Shown here in pieces: positions 15,146 to 26,244 of a stretch of DNA of 64,000 nt. Position 1 is the stretch's first letter; every line of letters starts with the position of its first letter. Location of the stretch: NCBI RefSeq assembly GCF_007830335.1, contig NZ_VLKU01000003.1, positions 248,001 through 312,000 of the forward strand, given 5' to 3'. The notes below the pieces were generated by a model. That model saw nothing but the letters and a program-made list of their open reading frames with translations. It searched no databases and had not been told where the DNA came from. This stretch comes from Paracoccus sulfuroxidans. GTDB taxonomy: Bacteria; Pseudomonadota; Alphaproteobacteria; Rhodobacterales; Rhodobacteraceae. The position numbers were made by a program, and so were the translations under genes.

Positions 15146-15340
15146 GATCGGGGCGGGCGTCCTGACCCGTTACGCTTTGAGCCTATACACCTGATCTGCG
15201 TCAGGGAATGGGGCTGTATCCGCAGCCTCGTGATGCTGCTTGTGCTGTCTATGCGACAATTTTCGCCGAAGGCATCACGTAATTCTAGAAAATTTCCACA
15301 CTTCGTGTCACATAGGATCTGCGCACAGGAGGGTTGTCAC

Positions 15341-16234
15341 ATGCAGGTTCGCGATTCGCTGGGAAATGGGTTGGGCATTCTGACTCAGGTGGATCAGATT
15401 CTGACAGGATCGGCGCCCCGCGCGACACGGTTCATCGTCACTGTTTACGGTGATGTGGTGGAACCTCGGGGCGGCACGCTATGGATGGGCACGCTGATCG
15501 AAACCTGCGCCAAGCAGGGCATCAGTGAAAGCCTGGCGCGTACCGCTGTTTCCCGTCTGGTTTCGGCTGGACAGCTTGTCGGAGAGCGTGACGGACGGCG
15601 CAGCTTCTACCGCCTGACGGCCCTTGCGCGGCGCGAATTCGTGGATGCCGCGCGCGTTCTTTTCGCCCCTCCGCCACATGCGAAGGGCTGGCTGATTGCG
15701 CAAAGCGACGGGGCTGTTACATCTGGCAATGGATGGGCGAAATTGAGTGATGCTTTGTCCATCGCGCCGGACCGGATGGACCTGCCGCAACCCGAGGGGC
15801 TGGTCATGCGGGCCGAGGCTGTGGCCGGTGCCGGGCATCTGCCTGATCTTGCCGCGAGTTATTGGGATATTGCAGCGATTGCAGATGGATACGCGCAGGT
15901 GAACCTGCGCTATCAGCCGCTTTGTGATGCGGTCGATGCGGGATACAGCCCGGATGGCGCGCAGGCGCTGGCGCTGCGGCTGCGGCTGGTCGACGATTAC
16001 CGCGCGGTCGCGCTGCGCGATCCTCGCTTGCCGCTGGCGGCTCTGGGTGAGGCCTGGCCGGGGCTGGCCTGCCGCAAGCTGTTCGTGAAGCTTTATCGTG
16101 CGCTTTCCCCGGCGGCGGATGCTTTCGTGGGTGAGAGTTTTCTGGATTCGACTGGACCGCTGCTGGCCGTCTCGGAAGGGTCGGGCCTGCGGCTGGAGCG
16201 TCTGGGGGTCGAGGCGCAGCGCCTGTCGAACTGA
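15341..16234 (+). CDS. paaX: PaaX-family transcriptional regulator
   Basis: A 297-residue GntR-like repressor of the PaaX family. Near the N-terminus, TRFIVTVYGDVVEPRGGTLWMGTL and the winged helix GISESLARTAVSRLVSAGQLVGERDGRR match the family, as do the middle and C-terminal PaaX domains (LVDDYRAVALRDPRLPLAAL). In E. coli, PaaX represses paa promoters and is released by phenylacetyl-CoA. It sits directly upstream of paaJABCDE. The ATG at 15341 follows AGGAGGG (15327-15333) by seven bases; the longer frame from 15230 has no such signal. The window also encodes a TetR-family PaaR. Confidence 0.87.
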   Translation: MQVRDSLGNGLGILTQVDQILTGSAPRATRFIVTVYGDVVEPRGGTLWMGTLIETCAKQGISESLARTAVSRLVSAGQLVGERDGRRSFYRLTALARREFVDAARVLFAPPPHAKGWLIAQSDGAVTSGNGWAKLSDALSIAPDRMDLPQPEGLVMRAEAVAGAGHLPDLAASYWDIAAIADGYAQVNLRYQPLCDAVDAGYSPDGAQALALRLRLVDDYRAVALRDPRLPLAALGEAWPGLACRKLFVKLYRALSPAADAFVGESFLDSTGPLLAVSEGSGLRLERLGVEAQRLSN

Positions 16235-17601: not shown

Positions 17602-18600
17602 ATGTATGCACAGTTGGTCAAGACCGAGGGGATGAAGTCGCCCGAGGACATGACGCCGGAAGAGCGCGCCTTCCAGGATCGCATCGACCGCAATGAAAAG
17701 ATCGAGCCCAAGGAATGGATGCCGGACGGCTATCGCAAGACGCTGATCCGCCAGATGGGCCAGCACGCGCATTCCGAAATCGTCGGTCAGCTGCCCGAGG
17801 GCAACTGGATCACCCGCGCCCCAACGCTGGAGCGCAAGGCGATCCTGCTGGCGAAGGTGCAGGATGAGGCTGGTCACGGCCTTTACCTCTACTCGGCCGC
17901 CGAAACGTTGGGCGTCAGCCGCGACGAACTGCTGGAGATGCTGCATTCCGGCAAGATGAAATATTCGTCGATCTTCAACTATCCGACGCTGACCTGGGCC
18001 GATATCGGCGCCGTGGGCTGGCTGGTCGATGGCGCGGCGATCATGAACCAGGTGCCGCTGCAGCGGACGTCCTATGGTCCCTACAGCCGCGCGATGATCC
18101 GCATCTGCAAGGAAGAAAGCTTCCACCAGCGTCAGGGCTACGACATCCTGATGAAGATGTGTTCGGGCACGCCCGAGCAGAAGGCGATGGCGCAGGATGC
18201 GCTGAACCGCTTCTGGTATCCCTCGCTGATGATGTTCGGGCCTTCGGACAAGGACTCGGTCCATTCGGCGCAGTCGATGGCCTGGAAGGTCAAGATGAAC
18301 ACCAATGACGAGCTGCGCCAGAAGTTCGTCGACCAGACCGTCCCGCAGGCCGAATATCTGGGCCTGACCGTTCCGGATGAACATCTGAAATGGAACGAGG
18401 AAAAGGGCGGCTATGATTTCTCGGAGCCCGATTGGGACGAGTTCTTCGCCGTCATCGCCGGCAACGGCCCCTGCAACGCCGAGCGTCTTCAGGCGCGGGT
18501 TGATGCCTGGGACAATGGCGCGTGGTTCCGCGACGGGCTGATGGCCCATGCCGAAAAGGCCGAGGCGCGCCGCGCCAGCGCCCGCATCGCGGCCGAGTAA
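17602..18600 (+). CDS. paaA: 1,2-phenylacetyl-CoA epoxidase, catalytic subunit PaaA
   Basis: The 332-residue ferritin-like diiron subunit of the ring epoxidase. The diiron ligands lie in [19 protein letters not shown] (ExxH) and [16 protein letters not shown] (ExxH), with [20 protein letters not shown] as a typical C-terminal block. It converts phenylacetyl-CoA to the ring-1,2-epoxide with PaaB, PaaC, PaaD and the reductase PaaE. It lies 17 bases after paaJ with a GGAGGA site. A GC-rich hairpin separates it from paaB. Confidence 0.95.
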
Positions 18601-18668: not shown

Positions 18669-18953
18669 ATGTCGAATGAATGGCCCCTCTGGGAGGTCTT
18701 TATCCGCGGTCAGCATGGCCTGAACCACCGCCATGTGGGCAGCCTGCATGCGCCGGACGCCGAAATGGCGATCCGCAATGCCCGCGACGTCTATACCCGC
18801 CGCAATGAGGGCGTCTCGATCTGGGTCGTGCGCTCGAACGACATCACGGCCTCGTCGCCCTCGGACAAGGGTCCGCTGTTCGAGCCGTCGAATTCGAAGG
18901 TCTATCGTCACCCGACCTTCTTCGATATCCCCGAAGAAATCGGACATATGTGA
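18669..18953 (+). CDS. paaB: 1,2-phenylacetyl-CoA epoxidase subunit PaaB
   Basis: The 94-residue small subunit. SNEWPLWEVFIRGQHGLNHR and VGSLHAPDAEMAIRNARDVYTRRNEG are family-typical, as is the C-terminal RHPTFFDIPEEIGHM. PaaB bridges PaaAC heterodimers in the epoxidase complex and has no catalytic site. A GGGAGA site precedes the ATG at 18669. Its TGA overlaps the paaC start (TGATG), so PaaB and PaaC are translated together. Confidence 0.95.
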   Translation: MSNEWPLWEVFIRGQHGLNHRHVGSLHAPDAEMAIRNARDVYTRRNEGVSIWVVRSNDITASSPSDKGPLFEPSNSKVYRHPTFFDIPEEIGHM

Positions 18954-19729
18954 TGGCTGCCGCAGCACCTGCGACCGGGACGGTCGCGCAGGCCGAATGG
19001 CTGCAGCGGGTCGGTGACAACTGCCTGATCCTGGGACATCGCGTGTCGGAATGGTGCGGGCATTCCCCCGCGCTTGAGGAGGACATCGCGCTGGCCAATA
19101 CCGCGCTGGACCTGATCGGCCAGTGCCAGCTGTGGCTGGGCCTTGCCGCCGAGGTCGAGGGCAAGGGCCGCAGCGCCGATGACCTGGCCTTCCTGCGCGA
19201 CGCGGGCGCTTTCCGCAACGTCCTGCTGGTCGAGCGTCCGAACGGCGATTTCGGTCAGACCCTGATGCGGCAGTTCCTGTTCGACGCCTGGCACCATGAG
19301 TTCCTGAAGGCGCTGAGCGACTCCTCGGACCCCCGCGTGGCCGAGATTGCCGCCAAGGCTTCGAAGGAAGTGGCCTATCACCTTGAGCGTTCGGCCGATC
19401 TGGTCGTGCGTCTGGGCGACGGGACCGAGGAAAGCCACGAGCGCATGCAGAAGGCGCTGGACGCGCTCTGGCCCTATACGGGCGAGCTCTTCATGGCCGA
19501 TGCGGTCGACGCCGAGATTGCGGCGGCAGGCATCGCCCCCAGCCCCGACAGCCTGAAGGACGGCTGGCTGCGCACGGTCAAAGCTGTGCTCGACGAGGCG
19601 ACGCTGGCCGTGCCCGCGGAAGGCTGGCAGCACAAGGGTGGCAAGAAGGGCGTTCACACCGAACACCTGGGCTATATCCTGGCCGAGATGCAGTTCCTGC
19701 AGCGCGCCTATCCCGGCGCCACCTGGTAA
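18953..19729 (+). CDS. paaC: 1,2-phenylacetyl-CoA epoxidase structural subunit PaaC
   Basis: The 258-residue structural ferritin-like subunit that pairs with PaaA. GDNCLILGHRVSEWCGHSPA, LEEDIALANTALDLIGQCQ and KEVAYHLERSADLVVRLGDG are diagnostic. The family is not the catalytic diiron subunit but is needed to hold PaaA. The ATG at 18953, which overlaps the paaB stop, is preferred to the in-frame GTG at 18950. It is followed five bases later by paaD. Confidence 0.95.
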   Translation: MAAAAPATGTVAQAEWLQRVGDNCLILGHRVSEWCGHSPALEEDIALANTALDLIGQCQLWLGLAAEVEGKGRSADDLAFLRDAGAFRNVLLVERPNGDFGQTLMRQFLFDAWHHEFLKALSDSSDPRVAEIAAKASKEVAYHLERSADLVVRLGDGTEESHERMQKALDALWPYTGELFMADAVDAEIAAAGIAPSPDSLKDGWLRTVKAVLDEATLAVPAEGWQHKGGKKGVHTEHLGYILAEMQFLQRAYPGATW

Positions 19730-19734
19730 GCGCC

Positions 19735-20259
19735 ATGCAGGCTCCGGCTCATCCCGATACGGATCAGGTCTGGCGCTGGCTTTCCGAAGTGCCCGACCCC
19801 GAGATCCCGGTTATCAGCCTGACCGATCTGGGCATCATCCGCGATGTCCAATGGCAGGATGACACGCTGGTCGTGACGGTGACGCCCACCTATTCGGGCT
19901 GCCCCGCCACCTCGATCATCAACCTTGATATCGAGACGGCCCTGCGTGAACGCGGCATCGACAAGCTTCGGCTGGAGCGGCAATTGTCGCCGCCCTGGAC
20001 CACCGACTGGCTGACCGAGGAGGGGCGCGAGAAACTGCGCGCCTACGGCATCGCGCCGCCCATCGACGGCACGGCGGCGGACGGGGTTCTGGCGGGGCGC
20101 ATCGCGCGGCTTGCGGGCACCTCGAACCTGACGGTCGCCTGTCCGCGCTGCGGCTCGACCCATACCGAGAAGCTCAGCCAGTTCGGCTCGACGCCCTGCA
20201 AGGCCAGCTATCGCTGCAAGGACTGTCTGGAACCCTTCGACTATTTCAAATGCATCTGA
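19735..20259 (+). CDS. paaD: Phenylacetate epoxidase maturation factor PaaD (MIP18/DUF59 family)
   Basis: A 174-residue protein with an N-terminal DUF59/MIP18 domain (VPDPEIPVISLTDLGIIRDV, TYSGCPATSIINLDI) and a C-terminal zinc-ribbon-like segment with four cysteines (CPRCGSTHTEKLS and YRCKDCLEPFDYFKC). DUF59 proteins act in iron-sulfur or metal-centre assembly. PaaD is required for a working epoxidase in other bacteria, probably by maturing PaaE or the diiron centre. It lies between paaC and paaE in the standard order. Confidence 0.93.
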   Translation: MQAPAHPDTDQVWRWLSEVPDPEIPVISLTDLGIIRDVQWQDDTLVVTVTPTYSGCPATSIINLDIETALRERGIDKLRLERQLSPPWTTDWLTEEGREKLRAYGIAPPIDGTAADGVLAGRIARLAGTSNLTVACPRCGSTHTEKLSQFGSTPCKASYRCKDCLEPFDYFKCI

Positions 20260-20293: not shown

Positions 20294-21370
20294 ATGGCAC
20301 GCTTCCATCCGCTGAAGGTCACCGATGTGCGGCGCGAAACGCGCGACGCGGTCGTCGTGACGCTGACCCCCCGGGACGAGGACCGGGCGCTGTTCGACTT
20401 CACCCAAGGCCAGTACCTGACCTTCCGCCGCAGCTTCGACGGCGAGGAATTGCGCCGGTCCTATTCGATTTGTGCGGGCAAGGACGAAGGCGTCCTGAAG
20501 GTCGGCATCAAGCGCGTCGATGGCGGCGCCTTCTCGACCTGGGTGAACGAGAACCTGAATGCCGGGGACGAGATTGAGGCGATGCCCCCGATGGGCAAGT
20601 TCTTCACCGCGCTCGAGCCGGACACCGAAAAGCACTATCTGGGCTTTGCGGGCGGATCGGGGATCACGCCGGTCCTGTCGATCATCAAGACCGTGCTGAC
20701 GCGTGAGCCGAAGTCGCGCTTCACGCTGGTCTATGCGAACCGCCAGATCAGTTCGATCATGTTCCGCGAAGAACTTGAGGACCTGAAGAACACTTATCTG
20801 GGGCGGCTTTCGGTCATCCATATCCTCGACAGCGAGGCACAGGACATCGACCTGTTCACCGGTCGCGTGGACGCCGAAAAGATGAAGGCGCTGTTTGAAC
20901 ACTGGATCGACGCGGGCTCGGTCACGACCGCCTTCATCTGCGGCCCCGAGCCGATGATGCTGGCCATCGCCCAGTCGCTGCGCGATCACGGGCTGGACGA
21001 CAGCCAGATCAAGTTCGAGCTTTTCGCCTCAAGCCAGCCGGGCCGCGCCAAGGCGCGCGCCGTGTCGCAGGCCCAGGCCGACAGCGGCAATGCCATCGAG
21101 GCGACGGTGACGCTGGACGGCTCGACCCGCAGCTTCACCATGGCGCGTAACGGCCAGACCGTGCTGGACGCCGCCATCGCCAACCACATTGACGCGCCCT
21201 ATTCCTGCAAGGCGGGCGTCTGCTCGACCTGCCGCTGCAAGGTGCTGGAGGGCGAGGTCGAGATGGAAGTGAACCACGCGCTGGAAGATTACGAGGTCCG
21301 TGCCGGTTACGTCCTGAGCTGTCAGGCCGTGCCGCTGAGCGACCGCGTCATCGTCACCTACGACGAATAA
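20294..21370 (+). CDS. paaE: Phenylacetyl-CoA epoxidase reductase PaaE
   Basis: The 358-residue electron-transfer subunit moves electrons from NAD(P)H to the diiron subunit. Domain order: FAD-binding barrel with RRSYSICAG, NAD-binding domain with GFAGGSGITPVLSII and FICGPEPMM, then a plant-type [2Fe-2S] ferredoxin domain. The ferredoxin cysteines are in APYSCKAGVCSTCRCKVLEG, with the fourth in VLSCQAVP. It follows paaD by 34 bases with an AGGAG site. Confidence 0.95.
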   Translation: MARFHPLKVTDVRRETRDAVVVTLTPRDEDRALFDFTQGQYLTFRRSFDGEELRRSYSICAGKDEGVLKVGIKRVDGGAFSTWVNENLNAGDEIEAMPPMGKFFTALEPDTEKHYLGFAGGSGITPVLSIIKTVLTREPKSRFTLVYANRQISSIMFREELEDLKNTYLGRLSVIHILDSEAQDIDLFTGRVDAEKMKALFEHWIDAGSVTTAFICGPEPMMLAIAQSLRDHGLDDSQIKFELFASSQPGRAKARAVSQAQADSGNAIEATVTLDGSTRSFTMARNGQTVLDAAIANHIDAPYSCKAGVCSTCRCKVLEGEVEMEVNHALEDYEVRAGYVLSCQAVPLSDRVIVTYDE

Positions 21371-21381
21371 GTGAGGTTATC

Positions 21382-22131
21382 ATGGATACGATGAATATCG
21401 ACGACTACCTTGCTCAGGGCGGGGTGCTGACCTCTCCGGACAACGTGCCCGCGCGCTATCGGGGCGAGTTGCTGCGGCTGATGGCGTCCTTCGTGGACAG
21501 CGAACTGGCGGCTTCGGCCGGGTTCGCGGCCTCGATCAACTTCGCGCCCGGCATCAAGGAGCGCATCGCCGCCAGCCGCATCACGCTGGAAAAGGCCGAT
21601 CACGCCGAGCGGGTGCTGAACGTCATGGCCGATTTCGGCACCGACACCGACCGCTATCAGGCGATGCACGACTGGGCCTCGCGCGTGGAACGCGACGCGA
21701 GCCTAGATGCCGCGCGCCGCGACGGCGACATGCGCCTGTCGGTCTTTCACTATCCGCTGTCCAGCTGGGACGACGCGGTGGTGATGAACGTGCTGATGGG
21801 GCTGGCCACGCAGGTGCAGCTGACCGAGCTGACGCGGCTGTCCTATGCGCCGCTGGCCGAGGTCTTCCGCGAGATCGCGCCCCGCGAACGCCGCCATATG
21901 GAGCTGGGTATCGAAGGGATCGAGAAGCTGGCGACCGGTGGCGACAAGGCTCGTCTACGGGAACTCATCGCCTATTGGCGTCCGCGCGTCGCCGCGACCT
22001 TCGGCAGCCTGAACTCCAGCCGCTTCGAGACGCTGTCGCGGTTCGGCCTGCGCCGCACCCCGAATGAAACCCTGCTGTCACGCTGGCAGCAGGACCTGGA
22101 TGCCTTGCTGGACCGGCTTGGCCTCAATTGA
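21382..22131 (+). CDS. Extra ferritin-like protein in the paa operon (Phenylacetic acid catabolic family)
   Basis: A 249-residue, mainly helical protein 11 bases after paaE. It resembles PaaA/PaaC (Pfam Phenylacetic acid catabolic family): LEKADHAERVL aligns with PaaA's DEAGHG helix and IAPRERRHMELGIEG with its [13 protein letters not shown] helix. The second ExxH is intact (Glu169, His172). In the first, the Glu position is Lys71 while His74 is kept, so a normal diiron centre is doubtful. It is not PaaA, B, C, D or E, all of which are present. A PaaC-like structural, assembly or protective role is possible. An in-frame ATG at 21391 is an alternative start. Confidence 0.7.
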   Translation: MDTMNIDDYLAQGGVLTSPDNVPARYRGELLRLMASFVDSELAASAGFAASINFAPGIKERIAASRITLEKADHAERVLNVMADFGTDTDRYQAMHDWASRVERDASLDAARRDGDMRLSVFHYPLSSWDDAVVMNVLMGLATQVQLTELTRLSYAPLAEVFREIAPRERRHMELGIEGIEKLATGGDKARLRELIAYWRPRVAATFGSLNSSRFETLSRFGLRRTPNETLLSRWQQDLDALLDRLGLN

Positions 22132-22135
22132 CCCG

Positions 22136-22190
22136 GCCGGAGCGGTGCCGCGCGGGCGCGCCTGACTGGCGCGCGCCGGCACCGACCGGC
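22136..22190 (+). other. Long GC-rich hairpin before paaZ
   Basis: CGGTGCCG (22143-22150) pairs with CGGCACCG (22177-22184), and GCGCGCC (22156-22162) with GGCGCGC (22168-22174), around TGACT. GCCGG and CCGGC extend the stem outward past small bulges. There is no following T-run, so this is better read as an mRNA stability or processing element than as a terminator. Confidence 0.5.
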
Positions 22191-22210
22191 AGATGAAAAA
22201 GGAAACGCCC

Positions 22211-24274
22211 ATGAACGCGACGATCCGCCCTGCGCGCCGTCTTGAAAGCTATGTCTGCGGCCAGTGGACCCCCGGCGCAAAAGAGGGCCAGCCGCTGCTG
22301 GACGCCTCGACCGGAGAGCTGGTGGCGCATATCGATTCCTCGGGCCTGAACTTTGCCGAGGTTCTGGAGTTTGGCCGCAGCGTGGCCAGCCCCAAACTGC
22401 GCGCCATGTCCTTCCACGAACGCGCCGCCATGCTGAAGGCCCTGGGCCTGAAGCTGATGGAGCAGAAGGAAGAGTTCTACACCGAAAGCCTGCGCACGGG
22501 GGCCACGCGCTCGGACGGGTGGGTCGATATCGAAGGGGGCATCGGGACGATGCTGACCTTCGCCTCGAAAGGGCGGCGCGAGCTGCCGAATACCCGCGTG
22601 CTGGTCGATGGCGATGTCGAGCCGCTGTCGAAGGACAACAGCTTTTCGGCCCAGCACATCCTGACGCCGCTTCAGGGCGTGGCCGTCCACATCAACGCCT
22701 TCAACTTCCCCGTTTGGGGCATGCTGGAAAAGATCGCGCCGACCCTGCTGGCCGGGGTGCCCTGCGTGGTGAAGCCCGCCAGCCAGACCGCCTATCTGAC
22801 CGAGCTGGTGGTGCGCCGCATCATTGAAACCGGCATCCTGCCCGAAGGTGCGCTGCAGCTGATCTGCGGCTCGGTCGGGGATCTGCTGGACCATGTCACG
22901 GGGCAGGACGCGGTGACCTTCACCGGCTCGGCCTGGACGGGGCAGAAGCTGAAGCAGCATCCGGCGATCATCCAGAATTCGGTCCGCTTCACCATGGAGG
23001 CCGACAGCCTGAACTCCTCGATCCTTGGCCCTGATGCGGTGCCGGGCACGCCCGAGTTTGACCTGTTCGTCAAGGAAGTCGCGCGCGAGATGACCGCGAA
23101 GGCCGGGCAGAAATGCACCGCCATCCGCCGCGTCATCGCGCCGCGTGCGCTGACCGAGGCGCTGGTTGCCGCCATTGGCGAGCGTCTGGCCAAGACCGCC
23201 GTCGGCCTGCCGGGCGATGAGGGCACGCGCATGGGCCCGCTGGCCTCGATGGATCAGCGCGACGAGGTGCGCCAGCGCATCCGCGATCTGCAGGCCGATG
23301 CCGAGATCGTGGCGGGCGACCCCGATGCGGTCAACGTCGCCTCGGGCGATGCCGAGAAGGGCGCGTTCCTGAACCCGGTGCTGCTTTATTGTGACAAGCC
23401 CTTCGCGGCCACTGCGGTCCATGATGTCGAGGCCTTCGGGCCGGTGTCGACGGTCATGCCCTATGACAGCCTTGATGAGGCGGTCGAGCTGTCGCGCAAG
23501 GGCAAGGGCTCGCTGGTCAGCTCGCTTTTCACCGATGATCCGAAGGTCGCCGAAGAGGTGGTGCTGGGCATCGCCCCCTATCACGGGCGGGTGCTGATCG
23601 GGAACCGGGCCTCGGCCAAGACCTCGACCGGGCATGGCTCGCCTCTGGCGGGGCTGGTCCATGGCGGGCCGGGTCGCGCGGGCGGCGGCGAAGAGATGGG
23701 CGGCATGCGGGGCGTCAAGCATTACATGCAGCGCACCGCCGTGCAGGGCACGCCGCGCCTTCTGTCGGCTGTCACCGGTCGCTGGATCGAGGGGGCCGAT
23801 GCCACGCAGGGCGAGCATCCCTTCCGCAAATCGCTGGCCGAACTGAAGATCGGAGACCAGCTGGTCACCGCCAAGCGCACCATCACGCTGGAGGATGTCG
23901 AGCATTTCGCCCATTTCACCGGCGACACCTTCTATGCGCATATGGACAGCGAGGCTGCCAAGGCGAACCCGTTCTTCGACGACCGCGTGGCGCATGGCTA
24001 TCTGATCGCGTCCTTTGCGGCAGGTCTGTTCGTGGAGCCGAACCCCGGCCCGGTGCTGGCGAACTTTGGCGTCGACCACCTGCGCTTCCTGACGCCGGTC
24101 TATTTCGGCGACACGCTGCAGGTGCGGCTGACCTGTAAAGAGATCAACCCGCGCGCCACCGCCGAACATGGTGAGGTGCGTTGGGACTGTCAGGTCACCA
24201 ATCAGGACGGGGCGGTCGTCGCGCAATATGACGTGCTGACCATGGTCGCGAAAAGCTGGCCGCCTGCCGCCTGA
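22211..24274 (+). CDS. paaZ: Bifunctional oxepin-CoA hydrolase / semialdehyde dehydrogenase PaaZ
   Basis: A 687-residue fusion enzyme. The N-terminal aldehyde dehydrogenase domain (about 1-520) has the catalytic Glu in [12 protein letters not shown] and Cys in [14 protein letters not shown]. The C-terminal MaoC-type (R)-hydratase domain (about 540-687) has [20 protein letters not shown] and [18 protein letters not shown]. It opens oxepin-CoA and oxidises the aldehyde to 3-oxo-5,6-dehydrosuberyl-CoA. The ATG at 22211 was chosen because AAGGAA lies eight bases before it; the ATG at 22193 is upstream of that site. It ends the rightward operon. Confidence 0.94.
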
Positions 24275-25537: not shown

Positions 25538-26137
25538 TTAGCGCACGGCCTTGATGCCTTCGAGGATCAGCGTGGTCGCCACGTCGGCATAATCCTCGCG
25601 GCTGATGCGGCCGCCGTCGCGGAACCACATATAGACCCAGTTCATCATGCCAAACAGCGACATGGTCACCGGCATCAACAGCGGGCGCTGCTTCTGGTCC
25701 AGATCGGGGTTCAGGTCATGCAGCACGGTCGAGAAATGGCGCACGATCCGCCGCTCGATCTTGGTGATCTCGGCGCGCTGTTCGTCGCTCAGCGCGGCGG
25801 TGGCGTTCAGCTGGACCTTGTGTTCATTGTCCGCGCCCCGATAGCACTCCAGCACCGTGCCGACCAGCTTGCGCAGGCGCTGCTCGGGCTGCAGGCTGGG
25901 GTCGTCGGCGGCCGAAATCTCGGCGTCGAGCTCCTCCAGATGGCCGGTGATGATCGCGAAAATCAGCGCGTCCTTGCTGGGGTAGTAATGATAAAGCAGC
26001 GCCTTCGACACCTGAGCATGTGCGGCGATCTGCGACATCGAGGCCTTGTCCATGCCCTGTTCGGCAAAGACCGTGGCGGCATTCTGTAAGATGCCGCGCT
26101 GCTTTTCTTCGAAGTCGTTTGCCCGTGTTCGAGCCAT
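25538..26137 (-). CDS. paaR: TetR-family repressor of phenylacetate genes
   Basis: A 199-residue TetR regulator. The N-terminal helix-turn-helix is QNAATVFAEQGMDKASMSQI with AHAQVSKALLYHYYPSKDALI. The C-terminal ligand domain includes a long stretch typical of PaaR (MPVTMSLFGMMNWVYMWFRD). The ATG at 26137 (MARTRANDFEEKQRG) is preferred; the frame continues upstream to 26203 through a hairpin. It is the last gene of the leftward paaG-I-K-R operon. Two matching palindromes at paaJ and paaG/paaN are its likely operators, and phenylacetyl-CoA is the likely inducer by analogy. Confidence 0.82.
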   Translation of the reverse strand: MARTRANDFEEKQRGILQNAATVFAEQGMDKASMSQIAAHAQVSKALLYHYYPSKDALIFAIITGHLEELDAEISAADDPSLQPEQRLRKLVGTVLECYRGADNEHKVQLNATAALSDEQRAEITKIERRIVRHFSTVLHDLNPDLDQKQRPLLMPVTMSLFGMMNWVYMWFRDGGRISREDYADVATTLILEGIKAVR

Positions 26138-26171
26138 TTTGCTGTTCGTCCCGAGGTCTGAGGCGCAGAAA

Positions 26172-26194
26172 TCACGGGCGGCAGGCGCCCGTGA
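26172..26194 (-). terminator. Hairpin between paaK and paaR
   Basis: TCACGGGCG (26172-26180) and CGCCCGTGA (26186-26194) form a perfect 9-bp stem with a five-base loop. It lies in the gap between paaK and paaR on the leftward transcript, about 35 bases before the paaR start. No U-run follows, so it may attenuate or stabilise rather than stop transcription. Confidence 0.4.
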
Positions 26195-26244
26195 CGGCTT
26201 CATCTAGCGGTCAATGGCCGAAAAGTCACGGCCGACGTGCCCGA

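Follow-up and report, generated by a model that had tools for sequence, protein, structure and literature searches.

A conserved PF05138 protein with lysine at a di-iron ligand position, encoded directly after paaE in alphaproteobacterial phenylacetate operons

In PaaABCE, the phenylacetyl-CoA epoxidase of E. coli, the catalytic subunit PaaA (TIGR02156; PDB 3PW8/3PW1) carries a di-iron centre liganded by Glu42, Glu72, His75, Asp126, Glu155 and His158 (PMC4498308). Helices B and C form its interface with the structural subunit PaaC (TIGR02158; PDB 1OTK, 3PVT) (PMC9493321), and a maturation role has been proposed for PaaD (PMC4498308, PMC7497051). PaaABCE of E. coli is active in vitro without any third PF05138 protein of the type considered here (PMC4498308, PMC9493321), and such a protein is not mentioned in the available part of a 2026 pathway survey (PMC13186573). 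Database records label the protein, below called X, "Phenylacetic acid catabolic protein" and no more, and a search of the open-access literature returned no functional description.

The window, a 64,000-nucleotide stretch of Paracoccus sulfuroxidans DNA, contains the plus-strand gene order paaX-paaJ-paaA-paaB-paaC-paaD-paaE-X-paaZ (Table 1). Beyond this operon, a TetR regulator, paaK, paaI and paaG lie on the minus strand. The equivalog models for PaaA, PaaB, PaaC, PaaD, PaaE and PaaZ all score above their cut-offs. The PaaX-like regulator (15230-16234) scores 184.7 bits with TIGR02277 and so does not reach that model's cut-off of 264.55; together with the TetR-like regulator (25538-26203) it flanks the paa cluster. 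The X reading frame opens with ATG, with a GAGG ribosome-binding-like stretch just 5′ of it, and the first ATG of paaZ lies 61 bp past its end. Because of the hairpin between the two genes, X may end a paaABCDE-X transcript segment. A structured X-paaZ spacer is seen in many relatives too. The nearest named relatives of the X gene are from Paracoccus, Gemmobacter and Pseudochelatococcus, and the paa operon is common to genomes of the same genus. X also occurs in Paracoccus denitrificans PD1222.

Table 1. Features of the paa operon and of the X ligand site (positions in the window)
Feature	Position	Strand	Evidence or conservation
paaA, catalytic epoxidase subunit, all six ligands	17602..18600	+	TIGR02156, 521.5 bits
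paaB	18669..18953	+	TIGR02157, 144 bits
paaC, start codon uncertain	18950..19729	+	TIGR02158, 297.6 bits
paaD	19735..20259	+	TIGR02159, 196.2 bits
paaE, reductase, ends 11 bp before X	20294..21370	+	TIGR02160, 431.2 bits
X, 249-aa PF05138 protein	21382..22131 (stop codon included)	+	ORF, PF05138 score, AF2 model
Glu41 codon, PaaA Glu42 position	21502..21504	+	Glu in 118/128 orthologues
Glu70-Lys71 codons, Lys71 at PaaA Glu72 ligand position	21589..21594	+	both 128/128
His74 codon, PaaA His75 position	21601..21603	+	His 117/128, Asn 11/128
Asp131 codon, PaaA Asp126 position	21772..21774	+	128/128
Second ExxH, Glu169-x-x-His172	21886..21897	+	128/128
X-paaZ spacer with strong hairpin, -45.4 kcal/mol	22129..22195	+	
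paaZ, bifunctional ALDH-MaoC, start codon uncertain	22193..24274	+	TIGR02278, 1015.6 bits

We used profile searches and an AF2 model to place X among known families. Against PF05138 it scored 66.4 bits (3e-18, residues 18-248), where a gathering score of 28.5 bits is the threshold for membership. The initial annotation, which had described a ferritin-like Paa-family protein after paaE in an operon already encoding PaaA and PaaC and had proposed this search, is thus borne out. Its count of a "sixth ferritin-like protein" has to be amended: X comes third among the ferritin-like proteins of the operon, and the number six applies only when the genes of paaABCDE-X are counted. Scores against the PaaA and PaaC equivalogs (46.9 bits with TIGR02156 and 28.6 bits with TIGR02158) stay below the respective cut-offs of 280 and 133.35. 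The model (pLDDT 88.5) has the ferritin-like fold of PaaA and PaaC, and structure comparison gave Z-scores of 25.5 for PaaA (231 residues, 2.1 Å), 25.0 for SSO1313, 20.6 for PaaC and 19.9 for BoxB. SSO1313 of Sulfolobus (PDB 4MUD), an uncharacterised PaaA/PaaC-like protein, is similar to X in size and fold but carries a Glu in its first motif (DELNH), is archaeal and does not occur in this type of operon.

Alignment identified E41, K71, H74, D131, E169 and H172 of X as counterparts of the six PaaA ligands. Five of these positions are kept in the X protein of the window, the Glu72 position alone being changed. Lys71 aligns with Glu72 of E. coli PaaA, and Glu169/His172 with Glu155/His158, without gaps relative to the nearest family; this agrees with the earlier proposal that Lys71 replaces the Glu of the first ExxH while the second ExxH is kept. 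A gapped hhalign alignment that sets Lys71 opposite PaaA Lys68 was rejected, as it requires a helix slide of one turn and contradicts the gap-free alignment. The lysine-bridge residue Lys68 of PaaA corresponds to Ile in X. Across 128 X orthologues no substitution is seen at E70, K71, D131, E169 or H172, unlike at E41 and H74. X therefore lacks the six-ligand set of a di-iron monooxygenase catalytic subunit, and orthologues with both ExxH motifs intact, the case that would have made X an ordinary catalytic paralogue, did not turn up (Glu at position 71 in 0 of 128). In the PaaA comparison set all six ligands are kept in 90 of 90 proteins. X and PaaA are about 23% identical. Phe108 orients the substrate ring in PaaA; its counterpart in X, F122, is kept in 116 of the 128 orthologues. 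Loss of the bridging ligand suggests that X most likely cannot assemble a canonical di-iron centre and is probably unable to perform di-iron chemistry.

PaaC, like X, is a PF05138 protein of the same operon without a canonical di-iron site, but its ligand positions have nearly all been lost (T/L/Q/Q/V, with His retained). A purely structural subunit is not what X resembles, since a single replacement has been fixed there and the remaining half-site is strictly constrained, whereas in PaaC the site has decayed. The idea that X is an alternative structural partner consequently keeps little of its force. An assembly factor and a guard against epoxide or peroxide damage, also suggested at first, are both candidate roles.

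The nearest profile to X is that of a PF05138 family of about 240 residues, here labelled "thr" (hhalign probability 99.87%, E 1e-31), which aligns with X over the motif without gaps. Unlike X, nearly all its members have all six ligand positions intact, and they are encoded outside the paa operon. The family looks like an uncharacterised two-component monooxygenase present in many Alphaproteobacteria. Its genes (loci L194, L195, L197, L199, L202 and L231-L234) usually lie near a gene for a PaaE-like reductase.

Phylogenetic analysis with PaaA and PaaC, one of the checks first proposed, joined X to its divergent relatives in a fully supported clade (100/100) apart from both. PaaC forms a single branch (100/100) with which X does not group; the deeper branching order is unsure, and long branches meet. 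The tree excludes a recent PaaA or PaaC duplicate. One-genome-per-species data yielded X relatives at 554 places, the best 80 of the 554 being mostly from Alphaproteobacteria (Rhodobacterales, Rhizobiales) and rarely from elsewhere (Spiribacter). A neighbourhood survey, also proposed earlier, found X directly 3′ of paaE in all 80 genome loci kept and in 71 of 72 further loci, the remaining one having a larger gap; the median paaE-X gap is 10.5 bp. A record titled Bacillus subtilis SK6B4 (L085) contains a complete alphaproteobacterial paa cluster and is probably contaminated or mislabelled. A second X copy (L251:9120-9806, 42% identical), located in another genome and outside any paa operon, adjoins an ABC transporter and a thiamine-diphosphate-type enzyme; it keeps E70, K71, D131, E169 and H172 and has Ala at 74.

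X is not universal. A PF05138-type match was present in 143 of the 296 Rhodobacteraceae genomes covered, and X in about 60 of these 143. X is missing from the paaABCDE operons of a deep marine PaaA clade (six of six sampled) and of several lineages nested among X carriers, and well-supported branches of the PaaA tree force at least three changes in X presence. Because many working-looking paaABCDE operons do without it, X is optional to the pathway rather than essential to epoxidation, and any help it gives is conditional.

Co-evolution was assessed at 42 loci with all genes present, after subtraction of the mean distance of the other genes from X distances. The correlation was highest with PaaE (0.56) and PaaA (0.51; Mantel p 0.0005 for both), followed by PaaC (0.32), PaaB and PaaD (0.27 each). 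At the same 42 loci X distances showed no correlation with PaaZ, PaaK, PaaG or PaaJ, the values being -0.35 for the adjacent PaaZ and -0.32 for PaaJ. Linkage alone fails to explain this pattern, since PaaZ and PaaJ flank the block and yet do not track X; co-transfer of a paaABCDE-X block is a possible source of the signal. The strict place after paaE and the co-evolution with PaaA and PaaE support the earlier suggestion of a role linked to the epoxidase. A PaaZ-side function of X in oxepin hydrolysis was considered and is weakened by the tracking of PaaA/PaaE rather than PaaZ, by the bifunctional PaaZ alongside and by five loci without an adjacent PaaZ.

Conservation, position and co-evolution together place X in the epoxidase module and indicate that its site matters. 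With its invariant lysine and its travel with the epoxidase in hundreds of alphaproteobacteria, X looks like a conserved helper, not a spare copy. The reading that we tentatively prefer, at a little short of an even chance, is that X is a conserved accessory component of the PaaABCE epoxidase module whose site has been rebuilt around a lysine and which lacks di-iron chemistry. The ancestor of X would be a PaaA-like protein that bound iron, and one fixed replacement, Lys71 for the iron-bridging Glu, would have rebuilt the site, with Lys71 presumably pairing with Asp131/Glu169. X would keep a fold like that of PaaA and some of the aryl-CoA pocket, including F122. Working with the PaaA/PaaE pair, it could bind the complex or its aryl-CoA/epoxide ligand without oxidizing it, and might support epoxidation by handing over the ligand or by protecting against uncoupled turnover or the epoxide.

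Divergent X proteins (45-50% identity, Lys kept) occur in five alphaproteobacterial genomes of four families (G462, G470, G505, G566 and G750). Their clusters consist of a divergently oriented flavodoxin gene and X-paaG-paaI-paaK; paaH, paaJ and a PaaN-type dehydrogenase are present in some of them. The flavodoxin is present in all five (71-77% identity); no homologue of it was found at E≤0.001 in the X-carrying Rhodobacteraceae searched. Long open frames at L174 and L175 had suggested an X-flavodoxin fusion, which was discarded, the upstream frame being the antisense of the separate flavodoxin gene. No PaaA or PaaC above cut-off was found in these five genomes, two of which are from one genus and whose draft assemblies could hide genes. 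All five, and only those among 385 sampled, encode a PaaA-like protein, labelled "sec", with all six ligands. Its gene has a PaaX-family regulator as neighbour in three of the five and is invariably followed by a conserved reading frame of about 140 residues; the "sec" structure model, being of poor quality (pLDDT 51.8), was left out of the structure comparison. X is thus accompanied by a PaaA-like protein in 5 of 5 of these genomes as well, which favours the accessory reading.

Among other readings, a redox-active X, with one metal on Asp131/Glu169/His172 or a metal-free lysine site, and supplied with electrons or a reduced oxygen species by PaaE or, in the divergent clusters, by flavodoxin, is rather unlikely in our estimate. 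The strict conservation of K71, D131, E169 and H172, extending to the second copy outside the paa operon, fits a working site, and a redox gene is always alongside, either paaE or the divergent flavodoxin, although adjacency to paaE may reflect gene order only. A precedent is offered by class Ie ribonucleotide reductase R2 proteins (QSK/VPK variants), in which a lysine occupies the former metal site and the flavoprotein NrdI serves the protein (PMC11846895). In common with X these have a ferritin-like metal site with a ligand changed to Lys and a small flavoprotein partner, but three ligands are changed rather than one and they belong to the R2 family, so that the likeness is one of analogy only.

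The divergent clusters and the "sec" genes (loci L171-L175 and L228-L230) may together provide another phenylacetate route, with an alternative epoxidase involving X. We regard as unlikely the broader reading in which X is a lysine-rebuilt PF05138 subfamily, redox-active or ligand-binding, that would be an essential partner in a second epoxidase (PaaA-like protein, the protein of about 140 residues, X and flavodoxin, replacing PaaABCE) and a later add-on in canonical operons.

A structural role in some PaaA complexes, either as a further subunit of the PaaC kind or in place of PaaC, is doubtful for X. Its fold matches PaaC as well, helices B and C are the most conserved of its helices, and the divergent-X genomes have no PaaC above cut-off but do encode a PaaA-like protein of intact ligands; however, canonical operons carry PaaC too, X retains the ligand positions that PaaC has lost, and it is closer to PaaA than to PaaC in both profile and fold. 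X might also act on PaaA itself, in its assembly or iron loading or by stabilising it, since PaaA is insoluble unless PaaC is present. Such a role would suit a final cistron after paaE that is dispensable in some species and co-evolves with PaaA, but the maturation role already proposed for PaaD and the lack of any X feature suggesting iron transfer make it improbable. The five retained ligand positions might suggest a catalytic paralogue of the usual kind or a PaaA duplicate in decay, but this is very improbable given the invariant Lys at the bridging position, the old separate clade and strong conservation over hundreds of species.

Epoxidation of phenylacetyl-CoA is a central step of aerobic aromatic degradation and the source of tropone antibiotics, and the protein inventory of the epoxidase is usually taken to be complete with PaaABCE and PaaD. 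If X is indeed a conserved extra component, reconstitution and engineering work in Alphaproteobacteria would change, and X would provide a clear test of how a lysine acts in what was once a di-iron site. The alternative cluster of the five genomes suggests a phenylacetate route that is missed by the current markers, PaaA and PaaC.
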